Shown here: positions 2,945-20,142 of the stretch, piece after piece
Layout: each line of letters opens with the position of its first letter
Numbering within the stretch: position 1 is the stretch's first letter
The notes under the pieces: generated by a model
Database searches by the model: none
What the model was told of the DNA's origin: nothing
Seen by the model: the letters and a program-made list of their open reading frames with translations, nothing else
Position numbers and translations under genes: made by a program
From: Candidatus Aminicenantes bacterium
GTDB taxonomy: Bacteria; Acidobacteriota; Aminicenantia; Aminicenantales; UBA4085
DNA length: 40,687 bases
Assembly (NCBI GenBank): GCA_026393855.1
Contig: JAPKZJ010000071.1
Span: forward strand, 76,567-117,253
Direction of reading: 5' to 3'

Positions 2945-3781
2945 ATGGCCAAAGACCTCAAAGACAAAATCGTCATCATCACGGGCGCGGCCGGCGGCAT
3001 CGGTTCGGCCACGGCCCGCCTCCTGGCCGGCCAAGGCGCTGTCCTCGTCCTGACCGATATTAAAAAGGATGAGCTCGAGGCTCTCAGCCGGGAGCTCCAG
3101 GCCTCGGGTGCCAAGACCCTTGTCCACGTCCACGATGTCCGCGACCCGGCTTCCTGGCAGACGCTGACCGACCGGGTCGTGGCCGAGCTGGGGGCGATCG
3201 ACATCCTGATCAACAACGCCGGCGTCGTCCATCCCGGCGCGGCCGAGGAGCTGCCCTTCGAAAAGCTTCAGCAGCAGATCCAAGTCAACCTGATGGGGAC
3301 GATCAACGGCTGCCGGGCCGCCCTGCGGGTCATGAAGCCCCAGGGCCGGGGCAAGATCGTCAACGTCGCCTCGCTCGGCGGCATCATCCCGATGTCGGGC
3401 GAGGCGATTTACAGCGCCACCAAGGCCGCCATCCGATACTACACCCTGTCGCTGGCGGCGGAGCTGCACGGTTCGCCGGTGGACATAGCGGTCGTCTGCC
3501 CAGACTCGGTCGAGACGCCCCAATTAGCCTACGAACTGCAGCACGATGACGCCGTGCTGTCGTTCATCGGCACGGCGATGAAGCCGGAGAAGGTCGCCAA
3601 GGGCATCCACAGGGCCATCCGCAAGAAAAAGCCCGAGATCCTCGTCCCCGGCGGATTCGGCTCGATCTACCGCCTGGCCATGGCCTTCCCCCGCCTCTAC
3701 TACATGATCTATCCCTCGCTGAAAAAAATGGGCGGCAAAAACATCCAAAAGAAACGGCAGAAAGCCGCCAAAAAGGACTGA
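2945..3781 (+). CDS. Short-chain dehydrogenase/reductase (SDR)
   Basis: This 278-aa protein has the classical SDR motifs: TGAAGGIG (13-20) for dinucleotide binding, Asp38 at the end of beta-2 (favouring NAD(H), inferred), NNAG (90-93), catalytic Ser143, and YSATK with Tyr156 and Lys160. The C-terminal part after residue 215 has a membrane-associating look (segment around FGSIYRLAMAFPRLYYMIYP) followed by a very Lys-rich tail, seen in SDRs that act on lipid-like substrates at the membrane. The substrate cannot be named. ATG at 2945 has GGAGAG upstream. A CDP-alcohol phosphatidyltransferase gene starts 6 nt after the stop, so the two form an operon and a role in lipid metabolism is plausible. 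Confidence 0.9.
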   Translation: MAKDLKDKIVIITGAAGGIGSATARLLAGQGAVLVLTDIKKDELEALSRELQASGAKTLVHVHDVRDPASWQTLTDRVVAELGAIDILINNAGVVHPGAAEELPFEKLQQQIQVNLMGTINGCRAALRVMKPQGRGKIVNVASLGGIIPMSGEAIYSATKAAIRYYTLSLAAELHGSPVDIAVVCPDSVETPQLAYELQHDDAVLSFIGTAMKPEKVAKGIHRAIRKKKPEILVPGGFGSIYRLAMAFPRLYYMIYPSLKKMGGKNIQKKRQKAAKKD

Positions 3782-3787
3782 AGCCGG

Positions 3788-4417
3788 ATGGCGGATCGCT
3801 CTGGCTTGCGCATCGTCCCCCGCTTCATCGACCGGGGTGCTGTCGGGCTGGTCGACGCGCTGGCCGGGGCCTTCATCAAGCTGGGGTTGACGCCCAATGC
3901 CGTCACCCTGCTGGGCCTGTTCGTTTCCTGGAGTGCTGCCTATTTTCTATGGCAAGCCCGGCCGCTTCCGGCCCTCCTCCTAGGCGCGGCCTGCGGCGGC
4001 CTGGATATGCTGGACGGCAAGATCGCCGTCCGGACCGATCGCCAGACGCGCTTCGGGGCCCTGCTCGATTCCAGCCTGGACCGTTACGCCGAATTCGCGT
4101 TCTATCTGGCCTTGGCCGCCCATTTCCGGGACCGCTGGCCGCTCTGGGCGGCGTTTGCCGCCTTCCTGGGCTCGACCATGGTCAGTTACGTCCGGGCCCG
4201 GGCCGAGGGGCTCGGGTTCAAGTGCACCGCGGGCCTGATGCAGCGGGCCGACCGGTTCCTGGTCCTGGGGCTGGCCTGCCTGGCCGCGACCTTTTTTCCG
4301 GTCTTCGATCCGGCCATGACAACGGCCCTCGTCCTGATCGCGGCCGTCTCCAACGCCACCGCGATCCAGCGCATCCTTCTCATCCGCCGCCTCGACCGCA
4401 AGATTTCCCCGCATTGA
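3788..4417 (+). CDS. CDP-alcohol phosphatidyltransferase family protein
   Basis: The 209-aa integral membrane protein carries the CDP-alcohol transferase signature: Asp73, Asp76-Gly77, Ala80, Gly90, Asp94, Asp98 (segment LDMLDGKIAV, then FGALLDSSLDRY). It would transfer a phosphatidyl or phospho-alcohol group from a CDP-activated donor at the inner membrane. The usual pattern DGxxAR reads DGKIAV-R here, so the Arg is replaced by Val81 with an Arg one residue later. Several hydrophobic helices follow (roughly 101-115, 118-135, 155-175, 178-195). It starts 6 nt after the SDR stop with no strong ribosome site, suggesting coupling. Its TGA abuts the first copy of the 180-bp repeat. The specific product (PG-P, PI-P or other) is not determinable. 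Confidence 0.9.
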   Translation: MADRSGLRIVPRFIDRGAVGLVDALAGAFIKLGLTPNAVTLLGLFVSWSAAYFLWQARPLPALLLGAACGGLDMLDGKIAVRTDRQTRFGALLDSSLDRYAEFAFYLALAAHFRDRWPLWAAFAAFLGSTMVSYVRARAEGLGFKCTAGLMQRADRFLVLGLACLAATFFPVFDPAMTTALVLIAAVSNATAIQRILLIRRLDRKISPH

Positions 4418-4596
4418 TACGTTCGCGGCGCCAAACCCCGATTTTCAAATCGGGGTCATAGCGCCGCTCAGTATTAACCCTTCAAATACCCCTGGGCTTC
4501 AGCCCGCCCTCATCCGCTTCGCGGCTGAGGACTGCAACCCCGTCGTCGAACCGCCGGGGCGGAAGACGAGCCCGGGGGTATCGAGCGGGTTTATTC
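4417..4596 (+). repeat. 180-bp structured dispersed repeat, copy 1
   Basis: This non-coding element matches the reverse complement of 19946-20125 with about 11 differences in 180 positions. It has three predicted stem-loops: (i) outer stem GCGGCGC/GCGCCGC (4425-4431 / 4461-4467) enclosing CCCCGATTT/AAATCGGGG (4436-4444 / 4447-4455); (ii) CCTCA-T-CCGC-TTC-GCGG-C-TGAGG (4508-4530); (iii) CCCCG, TCGTC, CCGC pairing with GCGG, GACGA, CGGGG (4538-4577). It begins at the stop codon of the CDP-alcohol transferase gene, in the same orientation. No ORF or transposase is seen. Confidence 0.85.
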
Positions 4597-4674: not shown

Positions 4675-6642
4675 TCAATCGAAGACTCCCTTGGCATAAG
4701 GGACCCAGGCCGGGTAGCCGATCGTCAGCGTAGCCAGGATCGTCCGCCAAGAGGGGGGCTTTCCCGAAGTCAGCTTCAGCCGTTCCGCCCGCCGGGCGTG
4801 GGCCCGCAGGGAGAACGGCAGCTCGGCGATGTGGATCGCCTCGATGAGGCCGAAAACGAAGAGCCAAATCGCCGGCGAAAGCCAAATCCCGATCCCGGCT
4901 GCGCCGAGGGCCGCCAGCACCAAGGGCGCGGCCGTGACGGCCAGCCCGGCCGCCGCTTGAGCCCGCCAAAGAAACCGGTCCTTGAGGCGGGCCACAAGCA
5001 CACCGCGCAGCGAGGCGATCGCCGCGTCGTCCTCGAAGTCCCGCAGCTTTTTTTTCTCCCGGCGGTCGACGACCGGCGATTGCGGCCAGGCGATCCAATC
5101 GACGTCTTTTTCCGCTTCCGTCAGCGGCCGGGGCTCCACGATTCCCGCATCCAACTGAAAAGGCACATCCAGCCTCTCGCCTTTGCCGATCAGCCGAGAT
5201 CGAATCCTTCGTATCTTGACGGTGGCCGCCAAGACGGGCAGAAGGTTCTTGTTCCGGACCGAAAGGACGCTGCAGAACGTCCCGGTCATCGAATGAAGGA
5301 TGGCGTGAGGCGAATTGGCCAGGGGCATGCACCCGGCGGCGTAATAATTCACGGCTCCGGCCAGCTCGCCGCCGCAGGACCCGATCAGGGCCTTCTTGCC
5401 GGGCAGGGCCCGGATCGCGGCCTCATCGTAAGCGCGGCCGGATTCGTCGTACCAGTACCGGATCCCGTCCCGGAGCACACCCCGGCCGATGACGACGGCC
5501 CCTTCGGATTTGGAGGTATTGAATCCCTCGGCCGCGATCATGGCCAGCCCGAAACGGGTGGACGCCAGGCATCCGCCCGGACAGGCGGACTGTAGGCGAT
5601 AGGCGATGTCCGGTCCGGGCGCCGCGTCCGCTCCCGGCCGGGTGACGCCGAACAGGAAGCGCAGGCCCGGGAAGCTCTTTTTGACCCGGTCCGAAAACAG
5701 GGAGCGATCGGCCGGCCGGAACGGCACGGGGCGAAGATCCCCCAGGACCCGGGCCTTGGCCGGCTCGCCGAAGCCCAATTCGTCGGCGACGCGCATCAGC
5801 TCGATTTCGGCCGGGTCAAAGCCCATCAACCAGATCGCTGCGCGGTCGGTCTCGACGGCCTGGTCCCCGGCCACGATCAGGCGGCTGTCCACCGGGTCAA
5901 CCGGGGCCGGACATTCGCCCTCGCCGCCGACCACACCGTCGATGACCGTCAGGGCGGGCTTGAAAAGGTAAAGCATTTCGACCAGCTTACGGTCGATCGA
6001 GAAATGATGGTTGCGCTGGCGCAGGTTGTAGGGAATGACTCCCATGGCGTTCTTGAAGCCCAGGGTGACGCCGGTATAGAGATTGGTTTTGAGCTTGGGG
6101 ACAGAGACGTAGACCGCTTCGCCGCGCACAACGGGCGAGAACACGCGGGGGATGAGGATCTCCCGCTGAACCCTGGCCTTGGGGAGGATGTAGCGGTCCA
6201 CGGGCTGCTCCTCCAGGGCCAGGAGTCCGCAGCCCCGCCGGCGGGCCAGGCGATCGATGCCCGCAGCCTTAAATGAGGCCCGGGTCGGAAAACCGCGCCC
6301 GGACGATTCCACGATGGTGATCGAAGCCGCCCGCCCGGCCAACCAGAGCACGACGGCGTCAAGGACGCGGGGATCGGTTGTTTCCGGGTAAAAATCGCGG
6401 ATCATGCCAAGGTGGTTGTAGACGATGACCAGATTGGGCTTGATCAGGACGGGGCGGCCGGCGATCCGGGCCCCGATGCCGCCTTCCGCGTCCAACTTGT
6501 CCAGGGCGGCGAAGACGGCGGCTCGAATGGCCGCCGTTTCCGGCCGAGCTTCCCAGGCGGGCGAGCCGTAATCCTTGGCCAGGGCGACGCACTCCTCCGC
6601 GTATTTTCCCTCGGGCAATCTTTCCACTACGACAACGGACAC
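4675..6642 (-). CDS. DUF362 protein with C-terminal membrane anchor
   Basis: The 655-aa product begins with a DUF362 domain (about 60-290) shown by VLIKPNLV, VYVSVPKLKTN, GVTLGFKNAMGVIPY and VIDGVVGGEGECP. A less familiar middle region (about 340-500) carries Cys354, Cys358, Cys423, Cys438 and Cys457 (SACPGGC, IGSCGG, AAGCMP). The C-terminus has two hydrophobic helices (about 563-582 and 586-607) and a basic loop, so the protein is probably membrane-anchored. DUF362 domains are often fused to a ferredoxin; here a 2[4Fe-4S] ferredoxin is encoded 1 nt upstream instead. It is the last gene of the moaD-AOR-ferredoxin operon, so a role in electron transfer from the AOR to the membrane is inferred. 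Total length well exceeds the basic DUF362 domain, and no biochemical function can be assigned. Confidence 0.85.
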   Translation of the reverse strand: MSVVVVERLPEGKYAEECVALAKDYGSPAWEARPETAAIRAAVFAALDKLDAEGGIGARIAGRPVLIKPNLVIVYNHLGMIRDFYPETTDPRVLDAVVLWLAGRAASITIVESSGRGFPTRASFKAAGIDRLARRRGCGLLALEEQPVDRYILPKARVQREILIPRVFSPVVRGEAVYVSVPKLKTNLYTGVTLGFKNAMGVIPYNLRQRNHHFSIDRKLVEMLYLFKPALTVIDGVVGGEGECPAPVDPVDSRLIVAGDQAVETDRAAIWLMGFDPAEIELMRVADELGFGEPAKARVLGDLRPVPFRPADRSLFSDRVKKSFPGLRFLFGVTRPGADAAPGPDIAYRLQSACPGGCLASTRFGLAMIAAEGFNTSKSEGAVVIGRGVLRDGIRYWYDESGRAYDEAAIRALPGKKALIGSCGGELAGAVNYYAAGCMPLANSPHAILHSMTGTFCSVLSVRNKNLLPVLAATVKIRRIRSRLIGKGERLDVPFQLDAGIVEPRPLTEAEKDVDWIAWPQSPVVDRREKKKLRDFEDDAAIASLRGVLVARLKDRFLWRAQAAAGLAVTAAPLVLAALGAAGIGIWLSPAIWLFVFGLIEAIHIAELPFSLRAHARRAERLKLTSGKPPSWRTILATLTIGYPAWVPYAKGVFD

Positions 6643-19945: not shown

Positions 19946-20125
19946 GAATAAACCCGCTCGATACCCCGGGCTCGGCTTCCGCCCCGGCGGTTCGACGACG
20001 GGGTTGCAGTCCTCAGCCGCGAAGCGGATGAGGGCGGGCTGAAGCCAGGGGTATTAACAGGGTTAATCCTGAGCGGCGCTTATGACCCCGATTTAAAAAT
20101 CGGGGTTTCAGCGCCGCGAACGTAT
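19946..20125 (-). repeat. 180-bp structured dispersed repeat, copy 2
   Basis: This is the inverted counterpart of 4417-4596, same length, about 94% identical by eye. The first stem-loop is kept with GCGGCGCT/AGCGCCGC (20073-20080 / 20110-20117) around CCCCGATTT/AAATCGGGG (20086-20094 / 20097-20105). Read on the minus strand it begins 17 nt after the lpxC stop codon and runs in the lpxC sense direction, as copy 1 does for its upstream gene. Confidence 0.85.
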
Positions 20126-20142
20126 GAATCCGAAAAATTCAA

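Follow-up and report, generated by a model that had tools for sequence, protein, structure and literature searches.

A putative PATE-like element of the Aminicenantes with guides that covary with its flanking targets

In the IS200/IS605 family, guide-directed target choice has so far been established from structures together with engineered guide changes. The guides of IS608 lie 5' of each hairpin foot, with the pairs A+16:T-3 and A+17:T-4 formed with the target (PMC5934647), and ISDra2 inserts 3' of TTGAT (PMC2806898). Two kinds of short repeat without a transposase gene have been linked to such systems. Palindrome-associated transposable elements (PATEs), known for example from Haloquadratum walsbyi, form one (PMC3119063); the REP, BIME and REPIN sequences associated with RAYTs form the other. 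TIRYTs have been described in Acidobacteria (PMC3733652).

The window analyzed here is a 40,687-nt stretch of a Candidatus Aminicenantes genome, which carries two copies of a short structured repeat. We consider it probable, at roughly 85%, that these belong to a family of non-autonomous, PATE-like mobile DNA of the IS200/IS605 mechanistic type, in which guides set the cut sites. Like the published PATEs, the element has no terminal inverted repeats, carries near-terminal palindromes, makes no target duplication and has no coding capacity; it is likewise multicopy, and active in a genome that lacks an obvious intact IS200-type tnpA (PMC3119063). It differs from PATEs in that covariation shows guides at both ends, which vary by copy and match their own targets, and in that no parent IS sharing its hairpins was found. 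It encodes no TnpA and is therefore not an autonomous IS200/IS605 member. We assign it as a PATE-like element, found in a few Aminicenantes lineages, with apparent natural re-targeting through its guide.

Anatomy of the element

The first-pass annotation had reported a 180-bp repeat present twice in the window, about 94% identical and 15.5 kb apart. Aligned to the reverse complement of 19946-20125, positions 4417-4596 show 94.0% identity over 182 columns (171 matches); each copy is 180 nt long, and the two have opposite orientations and the spacing given. Repeat seeds confined to the window found no further copies. Conservation over 71 copies places the family boundaries at ATAC (4417; 20125 on the minus strand) and TTTAT(T) (4594/4595; 19948/19947), a placement that is ambiguous by the AT found at either end. 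Copy 1 (ATAC...TTTATT) thus spans 4417..4595 on the plus strand, its boundary type being confirmed by empty sites in relatives, and copy 2 spans 19947..20125 on the minus strand. The 180-bp length represents one of three size classes, of 110, 148 and 178-180 nt, built on a core of about 107-110 nt that comprises two hairpins with CCCC...GGGG feet; in the larger classes, the tip of hairpin 2 is extended by 37 or 69 nt, and the two window copies, both of the 180-nt class, have about 69. Over all copies, lengths range from about 86 to 180 nt, without coding capacity and too short for a transposase. In the smallest forms, a structural role can be assigned to most bases.

Hairpin 1 is laid out as ATAC-GTTC-GCGGCGC-guide-CCCCGATTT..AAATCGGGG-loop-GCGCCGC-TCA-GTAT. 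In copy 1, its outermost stem pairs ATAC (4417-4420) with GTAT (4471-4474), and its lower stem (4425..4467) pairs GCGGCGC (4425-4431) with GCGCCGC (4461-4467); both are supported by the fold and by compensatory changes across genomes. Inside lies an inner hairpin, CCCCGATTTTCAAATCGGGG (4436..4455), which shows two-sided changes in its helix and is, from its position by analogy with IS608 (PMC5934647), the predicted transposase-binding hairpin of the left end. The corresponding sequence of copy 2 is CCCCGATTTTTAAATCGGGG (20086..20105, minus strand). Hairpin 2 has the layout TAACCC-loop-ATACCCCGGGCT..AGCCCGGGGTAT-CGAGC-GGGTTTA, and from the fold and the comparison of copies it occupies 4489..4578 in copy 1, with arms at about 4489-4498 and 4569-4578 on either side of the tip insert, which is in forward orientation. 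The two ends are not inverted repeats, since ATACGTTCGC.. is unrelated to the complement of the right end AATAAACCCGC...

The nested hairpin noted at first pass, GCGGCGC around CCCCGATTT, is present in both window copies and is predicted for DNA as well as RNA; copy 1 folds far better than its shuffles (z = -6.2 as RNA, -5.1 as DNA). Over 70 distinct copies from nine genomes, standard pairs fill 93% of paired cells and two-sided changes occur at 21 of 38 pairs, a level reached by none of 500 shuffles, with slid controls giving 8-14 pairs; the alignment was fitted to the structure model, so that the count leans towards structure. Some of these changes are directly visible, for instance ATAC/GTAT to ACCC/GGGT and CCCCGATTT to CCCCGCCTT, with the partners changing too. 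An Rfam search of the window returned two tRNAs only and no family above gathering score for either copy.

Guides, targets and empty sites

When copies are sorted by their flanks, the target beside each group is reverse-complementary to the bases that immediately precede the inner hairpin of hairpin 1: CAA with TTG, GAA with TTC and CGA with TCG. TTGAT goes with CAAA, TTCAT with GAAA and TCGAT with CGAA; targets include TTGAT, TTCAT, TCGAT and TTGAC, and left guides include CAAA, GAAA, CGAA and TAAG. The two window copies themselves differ in guide and target. Copy 1 has the left guide CAAA (4432..4435; GL role), which pairs with TGAT of its target TTGAT (4414..4418; CL, the cleavage-site role), whereas copy 2 has GAAA (20106..20109, minus strand), which matches its own target TTCAT (20124..20128, minus strand).

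At the left end, target base -3 and guide base 1 form G:C in 42 and C:G in 14 of 67 copies. The three-base score in these copies is 143 against 118.2 expected, which none of 20,000 within-genome shuffles reached, and only this register is enriched. When 71 copies are registered by structure, -3 pairs with guide base X in 52 Watson-Crick cases plus 13 G:T (0 of 10,000 within-genome shuffles), -4 with Y in 43 of 71, and -1 with N in 69 of 71 (an A-T pair in copies of the ATAC type and a G-C pair in those of the ACCC type), while -2 and Z are nearly always A.A. Such counts are inflated by the common ancestry of copies, but the combination of guide GAA with target xTC arises in different sequence backgrounds, namely TGAAA (G000, G002), GAAA (G002, G022) and GAAG (G018).

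Analogously, the right end terminates in TT[T/A/G]A[T/C], and position 3 of this motif pairs with base 1 of the guide located 5' of hairpin 2 (T:A 45, G:C 32 and A:T 10, n = 105; 0 of 20,000 within-genome shuffles). In copy 1, covariation assigns this role to the right guide AATA (4485..4488; GR), paired with TTTAT at the 3' end (4590..4594; CR); the corresponding TTTAT of copy 2 lies at 19948..19952 on the minus strand.

As in IS608 and ISDra2, each guide lies directly 5' of its hairpin, the same positions pair with the target or the right cleavage site, and insertion is 3' of a short fixed target, TTGAT being common to ISDra2 and the element, although the side of AT on which the cut falls is ambiguous. 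The element differs from both in having neither tnpA nor tnpB, in a whole length of about 107 nt, and in that its left guide is enclosed by the additional GCGGCGC/GCGCCGC stem, a feature without counterpart in the IS608 paper (PMC5934647) and one that counts against our reading. Autonomous IS200 copies of the same order share the CCCC/GGGG foot, the guide position and TTNA-type cleavage sites, but their hairpin sequences (CCCCGCGGCTTGCCGCGGGG) are unlike those of the element. Four of these copies fit the code (TTGAC/CATG, TTTAC/AATG, TTTAT/AATA and TTTAG/AATC), when the left boundary of each is placed, by inference, at the same distance of 18 nt from the hairpin.

For three insertions in genome G022, relatives supply the empty site, with flank identities of 90-98%: L206 in G090 and G016 (90-95%), L208 in G016 (97%) and L211 in G016 (97-98%). 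For L208, the empty GTCTGAT|TCCCCCC corresponds to the occupied GTCTGAT|ACGTTCGC...GGGTTGAT|TCCCCCC, which begins GTCTGAT|ACGTT and ends GGGTTGAT|TCCCCCC. Insertion is clean: no target duplication was found at the three sites beyond the ambiguous 2-nt AT common to both ends. Relative to this AT, the cut could lie before or after, the IS608 convention placing it after. At L211, the empty site and the right-hand side both have AC, and the left-hand side has AT; this suggests a cut two bases earlier than by the IS608 convention, i.e., before AT, which does not favor our reading. AT flanks the element on each side and occurs a single time in the empty site, as would be the case for an ordinary DDE-type MITE that duplicates 2 bp of its target. 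Such an element is very improbable here: terminal inverted repeats are absent, the dinucleotide hardly varies within a subfamily (AT in some, AC in others) and does not follow the target, and two separate guide/cleavage-site correlations would be left unexplained.

The PATE-like reading implies the following mechanism, modeled on IS608. The substrate would be single-stranded DNA, on which a Y1 HUH transposase acting in trans would bind the left hairpin CCCCGATTT..AAATCGGGG and the right hairpin CCCCGGGCT..AGCCCGGGG. The four bases 5' of each hairpin would serve as guides, the left one base-pairing with TTGAT, TTCAT, TCGAT or TTGAC in the flank and the right one with the last five bases of the element (TTTAT, TTAAT, TTGAT or TTGAC), and the cut sites would be set by this pairing. 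The element would then excise, a step we infer by analogy, and insert, as the empty sites show, beside a matching target without duplicating it. Mutation of the left guide would re-target later insertions, so that copies with different guides would come to lie at correspondingly different targets. The occurrence of different guides beside matching targets within one genome has the appearance of a mobile element being re-targeted in nature through a DNA guide; no earlier report of this was found in the literature searched, the coverage of which was incomplete.

Distribution and gene context

Additional copies are numerous. A blastn-type search of the host genome returned 66 pieces, and a covariance model (R1), built from 16 short copies, gave about 39 distinct matches, i.e., about 40 copies including deletion derivatives. 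The same-genus genome G002, which is about 80% identical, holds about 36 copies located elsewhere: no convincing insertion site is common to the two genomes, and the G002 regions aligned to the copy 1 and copy 2 loci lack the element. Nor did the R1 model find a counterpart of either copy in the corresponding stretches of other family members. Within a 99-genome set, carriers are the host genome and eight relatives of the same order, with a patchy distribution, and in a draw of 247 genomes across the phylum the element occurs in this order only. All genomes compared are metagenome assemblies; the named carrier records are Aminicenantes or "Acidobacteriota" metagenome-assembled genomes, two truncated relatives aside.

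At its left end, copy 1 overlaps with the stop of a gene for a CDP-alcohol phosphatidyltransferase (PF01066); copy 2 starts 17 nt past lpxC (PF03331), just as first described. From these positions it had been proposed that the repeat follows a rule, lying in sense orientation in 3' UTRs, and that it therefore acts as an RNA (terminator, stabilizer or processed RNA) or is a mobile element that targets gene ends. To place copies relative to genes, a simple codon-based finder whose output had been checked against the window was applied to 71 copies, comprising 34 from the host genome and 37 extractions from G002, one or two of which look spurious. The copies are intergenic and occur in either orientation. 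At gene 3' ends facing the element, 30 are sense and 27 antisense, and gene 5' ends facing it (78) outnumber 3' ends (57); the positional rule is thus contradicted as a general one. Random orientation relative to genes had been named at first pass as an outcome that would refute the proposal, whereas the further copies and the stem covariation expected there were both observed. In 11 of the 30 cases of a gene running into the left end, a TGA stop lies exactly at the junction, because the target TTGAT contains TGA. The apparent start of copy 1 at a stop codon has the same origin, TGA at 4415-4417 being both part of its target and the stop of the upstream gene. Siting near genes is, in our opinion, largely a by-product of compact intergenic space and this TGA-containing target. 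Fourfold-site GC skew was too weak to orient contigs, so no replication-linked orientation bias could be shown.

These data bear directly on an RNA element in 3' UTRs. The strong predicted RNA fold, the covarying stems and the sense position of both window copies downstream of a gene are what such an element would display. The balance of orientations, the excess of 5' neighbors, the lack of convincing sites common with the same-genus genome and the absence of a T-run after the hairpins all speak against it. Above all, the most telling covariation links the element to the target DNA at its flank, and no such link would be expected from a role as RNA only. We therefore regard this explanation as highly improbable, although a secondary transcriptional effect at single copies is conceivable. 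Of the two roles proposed initially, mobility is the one that agrees with a multicopy, lineage-specific family with exact empty sites.

Several copies (right-end junctions of L017, L024 and L040) directly follow -10-like boxes, as in TATAAT|AAACCC and TTGACA..TACAAT|TAACCC, and from these sequences some copies may sit at transcription starts.

Candidate mobilizers and variant copies

Searches with PF01797 found no IS200-type TnpA in the host genome, G002, G016, G022 or G090, all of which carry copies; this is a difficulty for the PATE-like reading. The IS200 TnpA of G009 and G018 was considered as a partner and set aside, the hairpin stem being different. The host genome has three Y1 genes, which are RAYT-like and match NF047646, all below cut-off; they are flanked by terminal repeats of their own, and PF01797 returned no other candidate for an autonomous partner in this genome.

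The alternative that a host RAYT (TnpA_REP), rather than an IS200 TnpA, mobilizes a REP/REPIN-type element is one that we think unlikely. REP, BIME and REPIN sequences are likewise short intergenic hairpin repeats in tens of copies, with presumed Y1 mobilization in trans (PMC3116915, PMC8266576, PMC3733652), and in the RAYT/REP system, too, use is made of a tetranucleotide that lies 5' of the foot of the hairpin (PMC6006769, PMC8266576). The Y1 proteins of the host genome are RAYT-like only, and in G002 two of the three RAYT-like Y1 genes have the element in their 5' region (L269 1998-2107, L279 1168-1313), which is unlikely to be chance and is suggestive only; in the host genome, however, none of the three has the element nearby. 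Moreover, the GTAG or CGTC tag is absent from the hairpin foot, and the element consists of two different hairpins with separate guides, not of inverted identical REPs, its guide being variable and matched to the flanking target. The terminal inverted repeats of the Y1 genes resemble those of TIRYTs in having motifs that start with GGGG (PMC3733652), and G022 and G090 have copies but no Y1 match. A bolder version, somewhat less probable again, is a swarm of single-strand transposons of about 107 nt, self-re-targeting through a DNA guide of 3-4 bases and moved by a host TIR-type RAYT or an unrecognized enzyme, not by an IS200 TnpA. Because the family is short, multicopy and cleanly bounded, it makes the mobilizer of transposase-less PATE and REP-type repeats directly testable.

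Returning to the PATE-like reading, it does not readily accommodate a 96-nt subfamily of G002 with about 10 copies (L175, L177-L179, L181, L182, L184 and related loci), which has multiplied despite losing the 5' arm of hairpin 2. Other variants are deletion derivatives (L041 1534-1590, L042 1536-1598, L043 1499-1540), which apparently arose via short direct or inverted repeats within the hairpins. The tip insert of hairpin 2, of 37 or 69 nt, is found both ways round in copies that are otherwise collinear (L010, L013, L014, L022 and L034 versus L001-L004), as if the tip of the palindrome inverts.

Two truncated relatives lie outside the Aminicenantes, in contigs labeled Omnitrophota (L124 ~3500-3560, TTTAT|ACTTCG...GGGTTTAT) and Proteobacteria (L121 ~4930-5050, TTGAT|ACTTCGACGG...). 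Both have element-like ends around the palindrome GCTCAG-TATTAACC-CTGAGC and are possibly part of a wider repeat superfamily; a literature search for the wider TTCGAC..GCTCAG palindrome gave no match. A second high-copy repeat family, unrelated, adjoins the element at L205 735-990 and has many matches in G016 and G090. Finally, L217 (G022) and L240 (G090) occupy one insertion site and have nearly identical hairpin 2 sequences but different hairpin 1 sequences, which suggests gene conversion or recombination between copies.
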